Shown here: positions 27,281 through 34,892 of the stretch, one piece after another
Numbering within the stretch: position 1 is the stretch's first letter
Layout: every line of letters begins with the position of its first letter
Source of the DNA: Desulfobacterales bacterium
GTDB taxonomy: Bacteria > Desulfobacterota > Desulfobacteria > Desulfobacterales > JAHDSC01
Reading direction: 5' to 3'
Length of the DNA: 64,000 nucleotides
Assembly (NCBI GenBank): GCA_018432925.1
Contig: JAHDSC010000035.1
Coordinates: 1 to 64,000, forward strand
Notes under the pieces: model-generated
What the model was told of the DNA's origin: nothing
The model's database searches: none
The model's input: the letters and a program-made list of their open reading frames with translations, nothing else
Position numbers and translations under genes: made by a program

Positions 27281-29191
27281 TCAGAAACGCGCCGAAACGG
27301 TCATGTAATGATGATTGAAGGGATTCAGCAGTTTTTCGGCTGTATGGACGATGGCCAATGCATCGATACTGTATTTGGATCGGATAAGGCGTTGCGGGCC
27401 GTGCTCAACAAAGAGATCCGGAATACCGAGACGCTCCATGCAAAAGTTCGTTATGCCTTGATCGCTTAAGCATTCGAGAACCGCGCTTCCAAACCCTCCC
27501 TGGCGGACATTTTCTTCCATTGTAATTACTCGCGGGATTTTTTTGACAAGAGAACCGATCAGATCCGCATCAAGGGGCTTGACAAAACGGCAGTTGACAA
27601 CCGTGGAGGATATGCCCCGCTTTAATAACGTTTCATGCGCGATAAGTGCTTCACCCACGGACCTGCCGATGGCCAGAATGAGGAGGTCGTCGCCGCCGGT
27701 AAGGATTTCACCTTTTCCGATGGGAATCGGTATAATTTCATTTTCAACTTTTACTCCGGCCGCAATTCCCCGTGGATACCGAAAGGCGATCGGGCCATTA
27801 TGTGCAAGGGCCGTGGCGAGCATTCGAACCAGCTCGTTTTCATCCTTGGGTGCCATGACTACCATGTTGGGAAGGCTTCTCAAATAGGAGAAATCAAACA
27901 GTCCATTATGGGTGGCGCCGTCTTCTCCTACGATTCCGCCCCGGTCGATGGCAAAGATAACCGGAAGTCCTTCAAGGCATACGTCATGCAATATCTGGTC
28001 GTAAGCCCGCTGCAAAAAGGTAGAGTAAATGGCGACAACAGGTCTGAAACCCTCGGTGGCCATCCCCGCCGCGAAAGTGACTCCATGTTGCTCCGCGATG
28101 CCGACATCAAAAAATCGGTCCGGATAGGTCTCGGCAAATTTAACAAGTCCGGTTCCTTCGGGCATTGCCGCCGTGACCGCGATGATCCGGTCATCATCTT
28201 TTGCCAGTTGAACCATTGCGTCTCCGAAAACTTGCGTATAACTGGGGATTGAATTTCTTTTCTTTTTACAGTTTCCCGTTTTTACTTCAAAGCACCCGAT
28301 GCCATGAAAAAATACGGGATTTTTTTCGGCCGGTGGATACCCTTTTCCTTTTTTCGTCAAGACGTGAAGCAGAACCGGTTCGTTCAGGTTTTTGATATTA
28401 TTCAATATGCTAATGAGATGGTTCAGATTGTGACCGTCTATCGGACCAAAATATTCAAAACCGAAAGCTTCAAACAGCATGCCGGGAGTGACGAAGGTCT
28501 TAAAGGAATCTTCGGTCCGTTTTGCAAATTGATAGATATCATCACCGATTTTAGGGAGCGACTTAAGAAACTCTCCGAACTCTTTCTTGAAATCCAGAAG
28601 ATATTTTGCGGAGAAGGTTCGGCTGAGAAAAGAGGATAGGGCACCCACGTTTCGGGAAATCGACAGCTCATTGTCATTCAGTATAACAATGAGATCCTTG
28701 TGAATGTCTCCCGCCTGATTAAGCCCTTCATAGGCAATTCCTCCGGTCATCGAACCATCGCCTATCACCACGATGACTTTTGCCTTCTCTTTTTTTAAAC
28801 GCTGGGCGCAGGCGATTCCGAGCCCGGAAGATATGGATGTGCTGCTGTGGCCGGTTGAAAACGCATCGTAAGGGCTTTCGCTGATTCTTGAAAAGCCGCA
28901 GAGCCCCTGATATCGGCGCAGGGTATGAAACTGTTCTCTACGCCCGGTCAGCAGTTTGTGGGCATAAGACTGGTGGCCTACATCCCAGATAATTTTGTCT
29001 CTCGGCGCGTCAAAGACATAGTGAATGGCAATGGCCAGTTCAACAACTCCGAGACTGGATGCCAAATGGCCGCCGTTTTTGGACACAACATCAACGACAA
29101 CTTTTCGAATCTCGTCGGCCAGAACCGGGAGATTATTTCGCGAAAGTCTTTTCAAGTCGGCCGGGGAATCGATTTTTTCCAAAAAGCTCAA
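27281..29191 (-). CDS. dxs: 1-deoxy-D-xylulose-5-phosphate synthase
   Basis: First enzyme of the MEP isoprenoid pathway: pyruvate plus glyceraldehyde-3-phosphate to DXP, using thiamine diphosphate. 636 residues, full length. The TPP-binding segment GDGSMTGGIAYEGLNQAG...LNDNELSIS and the second-half motifs GIAEQHGVTFAAGMA and DRGGIVGEDGATHNGLFD are intact. It starts with TTG at 29191, with AAAGGAT upstream; no in-frame ATG lies upstream. Last gene of the minus-strand run that begins with parA; 207 bases separate it from ispA, so it may also have its own promoter. Confidence 0.97.
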   Translation of the reverse strand: MSFLEKIDSPADLKRLSRNNLPVLADEIRKVVVDVVSKNGGHLASSLGVVELAIAIHYVFDAPRDKIIWDVGHQSYAHKLLTGRREQFHTLRRYQGLCGFSRISESPYDAFSTGHSSTSISSGLGIACAQRLKKEKAKVIVVIGDGSMTGGIAYEGLNQAGDIHKDLIVILNDNELSISRNVGALSSFLSRTFSAKYLLDFKKEFGEFLKSLPKIGDDIYQFAKRTEDSFKTFVTPGMLFEAFGFEYFGPIDGHNLNHLISILNNIKNLNEPVLLHVLTKKGKGYPPAEKNPVFFHGIGCFEVKTGNCKKKRNSIPSYTQVFGDAMVQLAKDDDRIIAVTAAMPEGTGLVKFAETYPDRFFDVGIAEQHGVTFAAGMATEGFRPVVAIYSTFLQRAYDQILHDVCLEGLPVIFAIDRGGIVGEDGATHNGLFDFSYLRSLPNMVVMAPKDENELVRMLATALAHNGPIAFRYPRGIAAGVKVENEIIPIPIGKGEILTGGDDLLILAIGRSVGEALIAHETLLKRGISSTVVNCRFVKPLDADLIGSLVKKIPRVITMEENVRQGGFGSAVLECLSDQGITNFCMERLGIPDLFVEHGPQRLIRSKYSIDALAIVHTAEKLLNPFNHHYMTVSARF

Positions 29192-29397: not shown

Positions 29398-30300
29398 TTA
29401 CCGTTTTCTTTTAATCACATATCCGGCAATCGCCCGCAACGGGTCCGATCGGTTATCAAAACCCTCAAGGGCCTGCAATGCATTGTTGACAAGTCTTTCG
29501 GCAAATATTTTGGATTTTTCAATACCCAGTATCGATGGATAGGTGCTTTTCTTGCGGGTTTTATCCGTACCGGCAGCCTTGCCCATAATCGAAGGATTGC
29601 CTTCGACATTGAGGATATCATCGGCCACCTGAAAGGCCAGGCCGATATTTTTCGCATAGATTTCAAGCTGCTCCACCTGTTCGTAGCTTCCATCCGCCAA
29701 AATGGCTCCGGAACATATTGCGGCTTCGATAAGAGCCCCTGTTTTCAGGGAATGCATTGCTTCAAGTTCATTTAACGAAAGACGGGTGCCTTCAAAGGCA
29801 ATATCTCTCATTTGTCCCTCAATTAAACCCTTATATCCGGCGGCGAAAGAAATTTTATGGACCACGCCGAGCCATTTTGAAGCTTGATTTTTGATGCAAC
29901 AACCATCGGCTGATGAAAGGGTCTGAAACGCGAGGGTAAGCAGGGCATCACCGGCGAGAATGGCCGTTGCCTCGTCAAATGCCACGTGACAAGTCGGTTT
30001 GCCTCTTCGCAGATCATCGTCGTCCATTGCGGGAAGATCGTCATGAATCAGAGAATATGTGTGGATCATTTCAAATGCACAGGCAGCGGGCAGTACATCC
30101 GTTGCTCTGCCGCCAACTGCTTCAGCGGCAGCGATGCACAGCACCGGTCTTAATCGTTTTCCGTCTCCCATAAGCGAATATCGCATTGCATTTTCAAGTC
30201 GGCTGGCACCCGGAAAATCTCCGAGTATCTTATCCAGTGCGGAATTGATCTTCTCACGTTTTGAAACCAGATAAGCGTTTAGATTAAACATAATATCCAT
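29398..30300 (-). CDS. ispA: Short-chain trans-prenyl diphosphate synthase (farnesyl/geranylgeranyl)
   Basis: Condenses IPP with allylic diphosphates to make FPP and perhaps GGPP, 300 residues. Both aspartate-rich motifs are present: DDLPAMDDDDLRRGKPT (first DDxxxxD) and DDILNVEG (second DDxxD). KTGALIEAAICSGA is also typical. It lies six bases after the IspH-UbiA gene and upstream of dxs, so three isoprenoid steps are clustered. Product chain length cannot be decided from sequence alone. An ATG three codons downstream is an alternative start. Confidence 0.93.
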   Translation of the reverse strand: MDIMFNLNAYLVSKREKINSALDKILGDFPGASRLENAMRYSLMGDGKRLRPVLCIAAAEAVGGRATDVLPAACAFEMIHTYSLIHDDLPAMDDDDLRRGKPTCHVAFDEATAILAGDALLTLAFQTLSSADGCCIKNQASKWLGVVHKISFAAGYKGLIEGQMRDIAFEGTRLSLNELEAMHSLKTGALIEAAICSGAILADGSYEQVEQLEIYAKNIGLAFQVADDILNVEGNPSIMGKAAGTDKTRKKSTYPSILGIEKSKIFAERLVNNALQALEGFDNRSDPLRAIAGYVIKRKR

Positions 30301-30306
30301 TTCAAG

Positions 30307-32034
30307 CTAAGCCAGACTGTAAACGAACGTGATAATACCCGCCAGGACAAATTGAGTCTCCACCAGGAACTCAAGCCGAATTCCAGGAGGCATATCGCCC
30401 CGTTCATGGAAAGAAAGAATCATAAACAGGAAAATCGGACAGATTGCAAGTGCAAAACCAAGATTTGGAAAGATATGGGAGACTGCCGACAAACATAACA
30501 AAAAAAAACTGATCCCCATGACGAATTTTAAAAGACGTGTTGTCTTTTTTTCACCGAGCAGTGTGGGAATTGTTTCCTTACCGACAATCCGGTCACCCTG
30601 CATGTCGAGAATGTCGAAAAATGACGTTCGCACAAAAACCATGGAAGCGGACCAAAAAAAAACCAATGCAGTGCCCAGGCCGATTTTGCCCGGCACGGAA
30701 ATGGCCGGCAAAACCGAAGTGAGAATTCCCCAAGCCGCGGCGATAAGGATTGTTTTTGAAGCCGGTATATCTCTGATTCTACGATACTTGGTTTTAAAAA
30801 AATGGGTCGGCAGGAGTTCAAAATTATAAGAAAGGCCGGTGGCGATCATTGATAGAAGAAGTAAAAAGGGAATCATCCCCATAAAATAAGCGATAGACAG
30901 ACCTGCTGCGCCGGTAATAATTGAAAGCAGTGCGAGAGAGTCTTTATGTTTCAAATAAAAAGAAGCCTTGTCGGGATCATTATAGCGATCCGCTTTTCTT
31001 GCCGTTAAATGGTTAAATATATGCATGGACTGGACATAAAGTGTGGAAACAAGTAAATTTGGAAGTGAAAATTCAATTCCCTGAAGACCGATACAGGCAT
31101 AGCACAGGCATCCTGCCCCAATGGATAGATAGACATTCGAAAGCAAAAGTGCCCGCTGTATTTTAAAAAGGATTTCCCGCCAACTTTGATCCTTTCGTAA
31201 AAGTAAGGCTTCAAGCGCCCGGTAAACCCTTTTGATTGTCCAGTTCGGAGTGGAAGCACCGGCTGTGATCCCGATACATTTTGCCGCAACCAGCATTCCG
31301 GCATCCAGTTCCGTTTCTCCTTCGATATGATAAGCCGGTTTTCCGCATCGGTTTGCGACCTCTACAAGGCGCTGTGTATTGGCACTATTACGGCCGCCTA
31401 CGACGAGGACCACATCGACCAGGTTTGCCAAGCGTTTGACATCAGCCTGGCGCTTTTCGGTGGAATCACATACGGTATTAAAAACTTCGTAGTGAGGGAA
31501 GTGGGTTTTTGCCCAGGTCTTAACCTGCTCGAAGAAAAGAACATTTTGGGTGGTCTGGGCAACGATGATTGCCTGATCAAATGGAGGGAGGTTTTTTAGT
31601 TCATCGAGGCTGCTGGCGATATACCCGTTTTTGCCTGCGTGGCCTAGCAGGCCGACGACCTCCGAATGATCTTTGTCTCCCACGATAATGGATGTATATC
31701 CTTGCCGGGAGTATTTTCGGATAATGGTCTGCACCTTAAGAACACGCGGGCATGTGGCATCGACAATATTGAAACCGGCTTTTACAAGGTTTTTTTTTAT
31801 TTCCGGAGGAACCCCGTGGGCTCGGATCAGAACGGTGCCTGACCCCTGAGCCGGAATATCTTTCATGGTCGATATTCCTTTTTCCTCCAATACCGTGAGC
31901 ACCTGTGGATTATGAATCAGCGGACCAAGGGTATAGATAGGCCCTTCATAATTATTTGGTGCATCCAAGGCCATCTCGACAGCCCTCCGCACGCCCATAC
32001 AGAAACCCGCGTTTTTTGCGATTATTATTTTCAT
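30307..32034 (-). CDS. ispH: IspH (HMBPP reductase) fused to a UbiA-family prenyltransferase
   Basis: 575 residues. The N-terminal ~280 residues are a complete IspH/LytB, which reduces HMBPP to IPP and DMAPP in the last MEP step. The three 4Fe-4S cysteines are C12 (AGFCMGVRRA), C95 (DATCPRV) and C189 (NTVCDSTEKRQ), and GITAGASTPNW is intact. From about residue 290 follows a polytopic UbiA-type domain (eight or nine TM helices). Its second Asp motif is canonical (DILDMQGDRIVGKETIP, 474-490). Its first is partly degenerate (N341...D349, with the usual middle aspartates replaced). One continuous frame joins them with no stop or internal start. The membrane half may use prenyl diphosphates made by the neighbouring IspA (inference). 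Confidence 0.93.
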   Translation of the reverse strand: MKIIIAKNAGFCMGVRRAVEMALDAPNNYEGPIYTLGPLIHNPQVLTVLEEKGISTMKDIPAQGSGTVLIRAHGVPPEIKKNLVKAGFNIVDATCPRVLKVQTIIRKYSRQGYTSIIVGDKDHSEVVGLLGHAGKNGYIASSLDELKNLPPFDQAIIVAQTTQNVLFFEQVKTWAKTHFPHYEVFNTVCDSTEKRQADVKRLANLVDVVLVVGGRNSANTQRLVEVANRCGKPAYHIEGETELDAGMLVAAKCIGITAGASTPNWTIKRVYRALEALLLRKDQSWREILFKIQRALLLSNVYLSIGAGCLCYACIGLQGIEFSLPNLLVSTLYVQSMHIFNHLTARKADRYNDPDKASFYLKHKDSLALLSIITGAAGLSIAYFMGMIPFLLLLSMIATGLSYNFELLPTHFFKTKYRRIRDIPASKTILIAAAWGILTSVLPAISVPGKIGLGTALVFFWSASMVFVRTSFFDILDMQGDRIVGKETIPTLLGEKKTTRLLKFVMGISFFLLCLSAVSHIFPNLGFALAICPIFLFMILSFHERGDMPPGIRLEFLVETQFVLAGIITFVYSLA

Positions 32035-32076: not shown

Positions 32077-32592
32077 TCAAAGTTTTTTTATTTTGATTCG
32101 ATCCCGTCGTTTTCTTTTAGATAACCGCTTGGCAGGACCTTTCTTTTTTGTTGTAGGCATCCACCCCGTTTCATCATCGAAGCCCGTGAGATTTTTATAT
32201 CCGGCCGTCGCCATTTTTTCTTCAAAAACCGGAGATTCTATGATCGCACATCCCTGGCATGCCGCGAAGTGCAAAACCTGACGATCGGAGCTGACGACCA
32301 GGGCCTTTTCCTTTTCTACGACGGTCATTTTCTTTATAACGGTATCGGCAGTTTCTCCGTTGCGGGAAAACCGGATCGAGATTCCTTTGATACGATCTTT
32401 ATTCGGGGAAAAGGCGGGAGCGTTGATTCCGTCAAATACGACGGTAATTTTGTGTTGCTTCATTTTTCTGTAAACGGCAAGCGCGTCAATCAGGGCTTCT
32501 CTTCCCCTCTGTATATCTTCCCGGTCAAGTGCGCTGAATACGGATGATTGACGGATCAGGTTGTAGCCGTCGATGATGATATGGATCGACAT
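32077..32592 (-). CDS. YacP-like NYN-domain nuclease
   Basis: 171-residue protein of the NYN/YacP family, PIN-like RNases. N-terminal IIIDGYNLIR holds the first acidic residue; VVFDGIN, ADTVIKKM and VVSSDRQVLHFAA supply the other conserved aspartates. The tail is strongly basic (KRLSKRKRRDRIKIKKL-like), suggesting RNA binding. YacP (Rae1) cleaves mRNA on ribosomes in Bacillus; function here is unproven. I start at the ATG at 32592; the TTG three codons earlier gives no better ribosome site. Located between parB and the IspH-UbiA gene on the same strand. Confidence 0.87.
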   Translation of the reverse strand: MSIHIIIDGYNLIRQSSVFSALDREDIQRGREALIDALAVYRKMKQHKITVVFDGINAPAFSPNKDRIKGISIRFSRNGETADTVIKKMTVVEKEKALVVSSDRQVLHFAACQGCAIIESPVFEEKMATAGYKNLTGFDDETGWMPTTKKKGPAKRLSKRKRRDRIKIKKL

Positions 32593-32652
32593 CTGAAGCA
32601 AGCAATCGATTTTTATGTGAAACGTTACTACAAATCGTGTTTTGATGGAATG

Positions 32653-33555
32653 CTATATCTTTTTAAGAAGGTCGATCAACCGGTCAAGATCATCATTATT
32701 AAAAAATTCAATTTCGACCTTCCCTCTTTTTCCTCGTCTTTTAATCCGGACTCTCGTGCCGAAGCTGCGGGATAATTCCTCTGCAAGATTCAAAAGATGA
32801 ATCTCTTCCGAGCTTGATGGAGATGCCTTTGGTTTTTTCTTCTCCGCTTTTAATCGCTTGATCAGATTTTCCGCTTCTCTGACGGACAACCCTTTTGTAG
32901 CGATGGCCCGCCATGCCGCGGTTTGTTGAGCTGACGAGTCAGCCCCCAGCAATGCTCTTGCGTGTCCCATGCTTAAAGTTCCATCGACGATGGCCTCTTT
33001 GATGGGCTCGGGCAATTGTCGAAGCCTCAAAAAATTGGCTACGGCAGACCTGCTCTTTCCCACACGTTTTGCCGCGTTGTCCTGAGTAAGATGAAATTCG
33101 GTGATCAGGCGATGGTAAGCTTCTGCCTTTTCCATTGGATTTAAGTCTTCACGCTGTATGTTTTCGACAATGGACATCTCCAGCAGTTCGGCATCTGTTA
33201 TATTTTTTATTATGACCGGAACCCGCTCCAACCCGGCCATTTTAGCTGCCCGCAGTCTTCTCTCTCCCGCAACGAGTTCAAAGCCGCTATTGTATTTTCT
33301 AACTAATAGGGGCTGAATGATTCCCTGCTCCTTGATGGATTGGCTCAACTCCTCAAGCTCGTTTTCGGAAAAGCGCAAACGGGGCTGGTAACGGTTTGGA
33401 AAAATTTGATCGACTGCGCAATGAAAATAGTCGTTTGAGTTCTTTTCGGTCATTTCAAAATCAGGAATAAGGGCATCCAAGCCTCGTCCCAAGGCCAGTT
33501 TTTTCCGTTTTTTTGATGTGGATCCGGGTTCTTTTTTAATTTTTTCTTTCCGCAT
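32653..33555 (-). CDS. parB: Chromosome partitioning protein ParB
   Basis: CTP-dependent clamp that binds parS and directs chromosome segregation with ParA. 300 residues from the ATG at 33555. Motifs: LGRGLDALIP at the N terminus, PNRYQPR, the CTP-binding ELVAGERRLRAAKMAG, then the helix-turn-helix LTQDNAAKRVGKSRSAVANFLRL, and a C-terminal dimerisation region. The open frame has ten extra upstream codons without a ribosome site. It lies 112 bases after parA. Confidence 0.95.
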   Translation of the reverse strand: MRKEKIKKEPGSTSKKRKKLALGRGLDALIPDFEMTEKNSNDYFHCAVDQIFPNRYQPRLRFSENELEELSQSIKEQGIIQPLLVRKYNSGFELVAGERRLRAAKMAGLERVPVIIKNITDAELLEMSIVENIQREDLNPMEKAEAYHRLITEFHLTQDNAAKRVGKSRSAVANFLRLRQLPEPIKEAIVDGTLSMGHARALLGADSSAQQTAAWRAIATKGLSVREAENLIKRLKAEKKKPKASPSSSEEIHLLNLAEELSRSFGTRVRIKRRGKRGKVEIEFFNNDDLDRLIDLLKKI

Positions 33556-33667
33556 TTTGCACACTTCGGTTAGAAATTTTAGCAAGCGTCATCTTCTATG
33601 TTACTTTTTGCCTTTTTGGGGATTCCCGCCGTTACTTCAGCTTATATTCAACAAATCACCAGCCTTG

Positions 33668-34435
33668 TCAATTGATAACGACGTTCATGACTTCCTCGGC
33701 CAGATTCGAATAGCTTTTTGCTCCTACCGAGGTTGCATCATAGAGCAGAATAGGTTTTCCGAAACTCGGCGCTTCACTCAAGCGAACGTTTCGAGGGATC
33801 ATGGTTTTAAATACCAGATCCTTAAAGTATTTTTCAGCATCCTCGGCGACTTGGAAAGAAAGGTTCGTTCTTTTGTCAAACATGGTAAGGAGGATGCCGG
33901 CAATCTTCAAATTCGGGTTCAGGCTGCGTTTGATACGTTTCACTGTTTGTAAAAGTTGCCCGAGCCCTTCAAGTGCATAAAATTCGCATTGAAGAGGAAT
34001 CAATATGAAGTCGGATGCGGTTATTGCATTCACTGTCAGAAGGCTTAAGGATGGTGGACAGTCCAAGATAATGTATTCAAATGAATCTTGCACTTCGGAA
34101 AGAAGGTTTTTTAGGGCTTTTTCTCGATCGGGGTTTGACATCATCTCAACTTCAAATCCGATCAGTTCCAATCGGGAAGGAATGATTTCCAGTTCGTTTA
34201 CCGCGCTGGGCATAATCAGGCTTTTCGCGGGAGATTTTCCAATCAGCCCATGATAAAGAGTCTTATCAACAAGAGTCTTGTCGATACCGATGCCGGTTGT
34301 TGCATTTGCCTGCGGGTCACAGTCCACGAGAAGGGTTTTTCTACTCAACACCGCGAGCGCTGCTGAAAGATTGATTGCCGTCGTTGTTTTACCGACGCCG
34401 CCTTTCTGATTTGCGATACATATCGTATTGGCCAT
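33668..34435 (-). CDS. parA: Chromosome partitioning ATPase ParA (Soj)
   Basis: Deviant Walker A ATPase of the ParA/MinD family, 255 residues, start ATG at 34435 (MANTICIANQKGGVGKTTT). KGGVGKTT, DCDPQANAT and IILDCPPSLSLLTVNA are complete. It works with ParB; in many bacteria the pair lies near the origin and mnmG/rsmG, but those genes are not in this window. The open frame extends 30 codons upstream; that part is not ParA-like. Confidence 0.96.
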   Translation of the reverse strand: MANTICIANQKGGVGKTTTAINLSAALAVLSRKTLLVDCDPQANATTGIGIDKTLVDKTLYHGLIGKSPAKSLIMPSAVNELEIIPSRLELIGFEVEMMSNPDREKALKNLLSEVQDSFEYIILDCPPSLSLLTVNAITASDFILIPLQCEFYALEGLGQLLQTVKRIKRSLNPNLKIAGILLTMFDKRTNLSFQVAEDAEKYFKDLVFKTMIPRNVRLSEAPSFGKPILLYDATSVGAKSYSNLAEEVMNVVIN

Positions 34436-34892
34436 TTTCGGAATGTAGCATAAAACCTGATAATTGAAAAGGGCATAAGAAATTGAAATTTCAAATCGGA
34501 TGTAACCGTTTAGATAACACCTCATCCATTGTAAGGTCGCTTCTTTTTCCTTGACATTTGAATCAATCCTTCTGTATTTTTAAATCAAATAATTTGTTTT
34601 TCCGCAGGTTCTTTAATTTTCCCGGATCGAATTTCAAGCCTTTGTCCTAAGCGATGTCCATTGGATTCCTAACATGGATATCGCATTTTTCCGGTTCATA
34701 AGCGGGTCAATAAGACCGTTTGCGAATGGAAACTGTCTTAATTTCTTTCATCACTCGTAAGTGTCTTAAAAAATTTAACGACAAACTTTTCATAAGCACA
34801 CTCTGCCGTTCGGCATTTGAGACGGGTATTCTGCTCATAAGACACAAACTTATTATTGGTGAATTGACAATCATTACAAAAAGGAGGGCAAA
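34436..34892. other. Divergent region between parA and the ABM gene
   Basis: About 460 bases without a gene. It contains a promoter-like pair (34551-34580), three TCATAAG words (near 34696, 34791, 34837), and AAGTGTCTTA with TAAGACACAA roughly 80 bases apart in inverted orientation. Their meaning is unknown. Confidence 0.4.
34551..34580 (+). promoter_or_regulatory. Candidate sigma-70 promoter for the ABM-domain gene
   Basis: TTGACA at 34551-34556 and TATTTT at 34575-34580 with an 18-base spacer; it would give a leader of about 305 bases before the gene at 34893. Confidence 0.4.

Follow-up and report, generated by a model that had tools for sequence, protein, structure and literature searches.

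We asked what a UbiA-type membrane domain does on the C-terminus of IspH, the enzyme of the last MEP-pathway step, and whether that domain still transfers prenyl groups. The question is raised by a gene of a Desulfobacterales bacterium lying within the 64,000-nucleotide stretch analysed here (hereafter the window; contig JAHDSC010000035.1, positions 1 to 64,000). The fusion frame runs uninterrupted for 575 codons from 32034 to 30307 in tandem with ispA and dxs. An original prediction made from the DNA alone, of a single 575-residue frame with IspH followed by a UbiA-like domain, was borne out on the minus strand, with both domains above their Pfam cut-offs. The features of the locus are as follows.

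30307..32034, minus strand: IspH-UbiA fusion gene, 575 aa, ATG start, stop codon included
31213..32028, minus strand: IspH (LYTB, PF02401) domain, residues 3-274, by Pfam
31183..31212, minus strand: short, stop-free linker between the domains, residues 275-284
30403..31059, minus strand: UbiA (PF01040) domain, residues 326-544, by Pfam
30988..31014, minus strand: altered motif 1, residues 341-349 (NHLTARKAD), with Ala345 at the first Asp of NxxxDxxxD
30754..30756, minus strand: Lys427 in a conserved P(G/A)SK loop, by fold position the probable counterpart of the diphosphate-binding K146 of AfUbiA
30592..30615, minus strand: intact motif 2, residues 474-481 (DILDMQGD)
29398..30300, minus strand: ispA-type gene of the farnesyl diphosphate synthase family, starting 6 bases past the fusion stop
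27281..29191, minus strand: dxs, downstream of ispA
32077..32601, minus strand: NYN/YacP-domain gene upstream of the fusion, which relatives also have

The N-terminal half matched LYTB (PF02401) over residues 3-274 (E = 1.4e-91, 306.9 bits against a cut-off of 24.5) and TIGR00216 ispH_lytB with 285 bits against a curated cut-off of 187.85. The expectation of a complete IspH with cluster cysteines C12, C95 and C189 held, these residues being invariant in 107/107 fusions of the phylum and in 23/23 Elusimicrobiota fusions. H41, H73, H123, E125, S217, N219 and S261 were all present in the window and invariant across the 107 fusions, and a Foldseek search with the AlphaFold2 model returned E. coli IspH (3ke8/3f7t; TM 0.86 by target, rmsd 1.6), with the IspH trefoil fold. 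No PF02401 match other than the fusion gene was present in the genome (3.38 Mb, 97.8% complete), so that any IspH activity needed for a running MEP pathway has to come from the fused protein. The closest named relative was Desulfobacterales MAG bin589 (CP070697.1), with 62% identity over the full length. In one genus (f12 g16; L063-L066, L070, L072, L074, L075), inserts within the IspH half extend the frames to 635-665 aa.

The adjoining ispA and dxs genes had also been anticipated correctly, both on the same strand as the fusion and ispA 6 bases downstream of it. Directly upstream of the NYN-ispH-ispA-dxs cluster, parB- and parA-like genes occupy positions 32653-34525 of the window (minus strand). 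When the neighbourhoods of 99 fusion loci were compared, the commonest neighbours were a short upstream gene (29 loci), the NYN gene, plsY, parB and a glycosyltransferase-like gene, and the parB cluster lay near the fusion again in 13 loci. In 28 of the 99 loci (e.g. L038 636-1094) a gene for a ~150-aa protein that reads like DUF3842 lay on the fusion's strand, upstream of it. No acceptor-pathway gene recurred beside the fusion in these 99 loci.

That the fusion is unusual is not supported: IspH-UbiA fusions have been known since 2015, and the window gene is a member of this published group (Rao et al. 2015, Chem Sci; PMC4746011). Those authors described 47 hybrids, mainly from Desulfobacterales and assigned to subgroup PT_UbiA_5, left their function and prenyl acceptor open, and could not express an active full-length hybrid protein. 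In their reading the hybrids had two DXXXD sites and probably carried out prenyl transfer, and all of them came from sulfate reducers (PMC4746011). The prediction that the acceptor is unknown agrees with this account, and the one later paper in which a full-text search of the literature covered met the term does no more than cite it.

We searched related genomes for the same fusion and found it across the class, the phylum and also Elusimicrobiota. Matches occurred in 280 of 291 class genomes, and ~149 of the ~150 matches listed were full-length, single frames spanning both domains stop-free, the one exception being ended by a contig end. The fusion is thus the normal form of IspH in the class. 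At the phylum level the UbiA half was present in 114/297 genomes, nearly all strong matches falling in open frames of ~480-900 aa and hence fused, and one short match (G558) had a contig end 44 bases beyond it. A stop or frameshift between the halves, looked for specifically among relatives, appeared in a single genome, G202 (L059 710-2331), where the halves lie in overlapping different frames and ~50 residues are missing at the junction, a pattern suggestive of a deletion in this copy. In the IspH-domain tree, IspH-only rows of the order were nested inside fused ones, which suggests that the UbiA half was probably lost several times in Desulfobacterales while IspH was kept. No UbiA remnants were found behind IspH in the IspH-only lineages, and in two IspH-only genomes IspH was followed directly by ispA. 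In some IspH-only lineages of the order (L057, L060-L062), IspH is followed by a small gene whose product resembles an Smr domain on reading.

The UbiA half scored 54.6 bits with PF01040 (residues 326-544; gathering score 34.2), and approximately nine membrane helices were predicted between residues 285 and 574. AlphaFold2, run on an alignment of 68 sequences, modelled the whole chain with a pLDDT of 91.2 and a pTM of 0.83; structure prediction of the UbiA half itself recovered the UbiA fold (pLDDT 93.2, pTM 0.91), with Foldseek matches to the ApUbiA, AfUbiA and MjDGGGPS structures 4od4 (TM 0.70/0.74), 6m31 and 4tq4. A phmmer search of the PDB with the UbiA half alone gave no match, and a profile search found MjDGGGPS. 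The genome holds two further UbiA proteins, the first of which has a MenA-like motif (NDVWDYRKGID) and the second of which is adjoined by a UbiD-like gene, names that we presume from how the sequences read. Where the fused domain is absent, a canonical UbiA was mostly kept, G067 having only a weak, partial match. Because of these two other genes and the canonical UbiA in fusion-less lineages, we rejected the idea that the fused domain is the quinone prenyltransferase of the cell as unlikely. A possible other UbiA fusion was seen in an IspH-only genome, where the domain lies in a 1218-aa open frame (G053:C47:119759-120403).

Of the two aspartate motifs, the first had been described as degenerate and the second as canonical, and both descriptions were correct. 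Motif 2 (DxxDxxxD) is complete in the window (D474, D477, D481), and motif 1 (NxxxDxxxD) is incomplete (N341, A345, D349). Profile alignment with the M. jannaschii DGGGP synthase set NDIFDIEIDRIN of that enzyme against NHLTARKADRYN in the window, and at motif 1 the canonical NDIFDIEIDRINKPSRP stood opposite NHLTARKADRYNDPDKA, such that the Asn (N341) and the second Asp (D349) of the motif are retained and Ala (A345) takes the place of the first Asp. We accordingly class the domain as UbiA-fold rather than as an established prenyltransferase. Position 345 is equivalent to D72 of AfUbiA, in which N68 and D72 contact magnesium directly and D76 does not (PMC4106721). Four of six AfUbiA mutants (N68A, D72A, R22A and K146A, not D198A or D202A) abolished GPP binding, and E. 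coli MenA lost its function when the D72 equivalent was mutated (PMC4106721). The doubt about catalysis that the altered motif had raised is supported by the D72A result (PMC4106721), and classical prenyl transfer in the window copy appears doubtful.

Degeneracy of the first motif is a trait of the fusions family-wide. Among 68 non-redundant fusions, both motif 1 acids were present in 5, the first only in 33, the second only in 19 and neither in 11, and across the 107 fusions the first position was Asp in 51 and Gly in 36, with the window and 55 others non-Asp. We considered whether possession of exactly one motif 1 acid is itself a constraint and rejected this, as the state with only residue 349 acidic needs just 4 changes on the tree and occurs mostly in one group of relatives around the window, pointing largely to shared ancestry. 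Motif 2 read DDD or EDD in 47/68 non-redundant fusions, and D481 was present in 105/107. K427, probably equivalent to K146 of AfUbiA given its position, was kept in 96/107, and R294, by position a candidate for the TM1 arginine, in 75/107 and in few of the Elusimicrobiota fusions. The intact motif 2 of the window, together with the 47/68 fusions reading DDD or EDD, suggests that the Desulfobacterota fusions still make use of a metal or carry out a reaction, and D349 could partly substitute for the residue lost at 345.

Loss of the acids went further in a phylum that we call Elusimicrobiota after the title of an Elusimicrobia record matched by the window protein, and of which we searched 150 genomes. 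The fusion was found in 39 of these, in open frames of 557-800 aa. In 23 of the Elusimicrobiota fusions motif 1 was broken or partly deleted, with Glu at 345 in 19; position 474 was Gly or Ser, and 477 was mostly Ser, His or Ala and non-acidic in those tallied. N341, K427, W435, P443, R469, D481, E487 and G494 were identical in 23/23. Most metal-binding acids are gone in this phylum while the fusion persists, which speaks against prenyl transfer as the reason why the two domains stay together. Stand-alone relatives of the UbiA half (281-354 aa) occurred in 38/198 Bacteroidota genomes, overturning the notion that the domain exists solely as a fusion, and 199 Bacillota genomes gave no match at E 1e-15. 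The nearest Bacteroidota relatives (L183-L193, ~291-319 aa) had both motifs intact, NRLTDDVED and DMRDRHGD (general form NRLTDD.ED ... DMRDRxGD), so that, as we infer the direction, it was probably an ordinary prenyltransferase that gave rise to the fused domain.

The reading we favour, with confidence and doubt about evenly balanced, is that the UbiA half serves as a membrane tether for IspH and retains a prenyl phosphate or diphosphate pocket, with weak or no transfer in this copy. The gene would make the only IspH of the cell as a membrane-bound protein. Its N-terminal half, to judge from its complete conservation, would convert HMBPP to IPP and DMAPP through the 4Fe-4S cluster, and its C-terminal half, a predicted nine-helix UbiA fold of the PT_UbiA_5 kind, would tether IspH to the inner membrane beside polyprenyl pools derived from the product of the neighbouring ispA. 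The pocket keeps Asn341, Lys427, Arg469 and the motif 2 acids, and has probably retained the ability to bind a prenyl phosphate or diphosphate. Since the first-magnesium acid is replaced by Ala, ordinary magnesium-driven prenyl transfer is likely to be weak, changed or absent.

A bifunctional enzyme is possible but in our judgement unlikely. The UbiA half would then be an active prenyltransferase working with motif 2 and the remaining motif 1 acid, IspH feeding its donor pathway, as has been proposed in print (Rao et al. 2015; PMC4746011). The complete motif 2 of the window, the single motif 1 acid retained in 52/68 fusions, a UbiA domain above the Pfam gathering score and stand-alone Bacteroidota relatives with both full motifs are all consistent with this proposal. 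However, the counterpart of D72 is non-Asp in the window and 55 further fusions of 107, and mutating this Asp stops AfUbiA from binding GPP and E. coli MenA from functioning (PMC4106721). In the Elusimicrobiota fusions most of the acids that would bind metal are gone, the C5 products of IspH do not directly serve as the long-chain donor, and the 99 loci show no recurrent acceptor-pathway gene near the fusion. As for the original claim that the last MEP step is joined to membrane prenyl transfer, the conserved fusion within an isoprenoid operon upholds the joining, and motif degeneracy across the family counts against the transfer.

It is improbable, in our estimation, that the UbiA half has ceased to be a prenyltransferase and instead senses prenyl phosphates or diphosphates in the membrane and thereby controls IspH, in Desulfobacterota-type bacteria and Elusimicrobiota alike. 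This possibility draws on human UBIAD1, a GGPP sensor bound to HMGCR (PMC9314443), whose complex was a weak fold match by Foldseek (8djk_B). As there, a UbiA fold is joined to an isoprenoid-pathway reductase, and in Elusimicrobiota ligand-type residues have outlasted catalytic ones; yet the case is one of analogy only, and the fused half has been cleanly lost in several lineages that keep IspH. That the half is a pure, ligand-free membrane anchor seems more improbable still: eroded metal motifs and its dispensability in some lineages would fit, but the polar pocket residues are invariant in two phyla, beyond what an anchor needs. An assembly error, a frameshift artefact or two proteins made from one locus, for which only the split halves of G202 speak, we reject with near certainty against ~149 full-length one-frame class relatives among the matches listed and many more across the phylum.

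Compared with the 2015 description, it is new that the catalytic acids of the membrane half are lost family-wide, and more completely in a second phylum, Elusimicrobiota, whose fusions that description did not contain. Given that the other pocket residues are invariant, the question moves from the identity of the acceptor to whether the UbiA half is an enzyme. Should the half bind or sense prenyl phosphates, this would reveal post-translational control where the MEP pathway ends, and if the sensor reading were true, the bacterial MEP pathway would have a built-in feedback device paralleling UBIAD1-HMGCR.

Among known systems, the window gene resembles the hybrids of Rao et al. in domain order, size, Desulfobacterales host and UbiA-type partner (PT_UbiA_5), but lacks the first Mg-binding Asp, and its family extends to Elusimicrobiota. 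IspH-RPS1 hybrids (e.g. Clostridium thermocellum) likewise occur in anaerobes and carry a C-terminal partner on IspH, although theirs is ribosomal protein S1, which is soluble. With AfUbiA, ApUbiA and MjDGGGPS the UbiA half shares the nine-helix fold, motif 2, the motif 1 Asn and probably the Lys of the 4-5 loop, whereas identity in the structural matches is 13-19%, Ala replaces the first motif 1 Asp and no RPxPSG stretch follows motif 1. Human UBIAD1-HMGCR, by analogy only, also physically joins a UbiA fold to an isoprenoid-pathway reductase, but as two separate proteins of the mevalonate pathway in which UBIAD1 is catalytically active.
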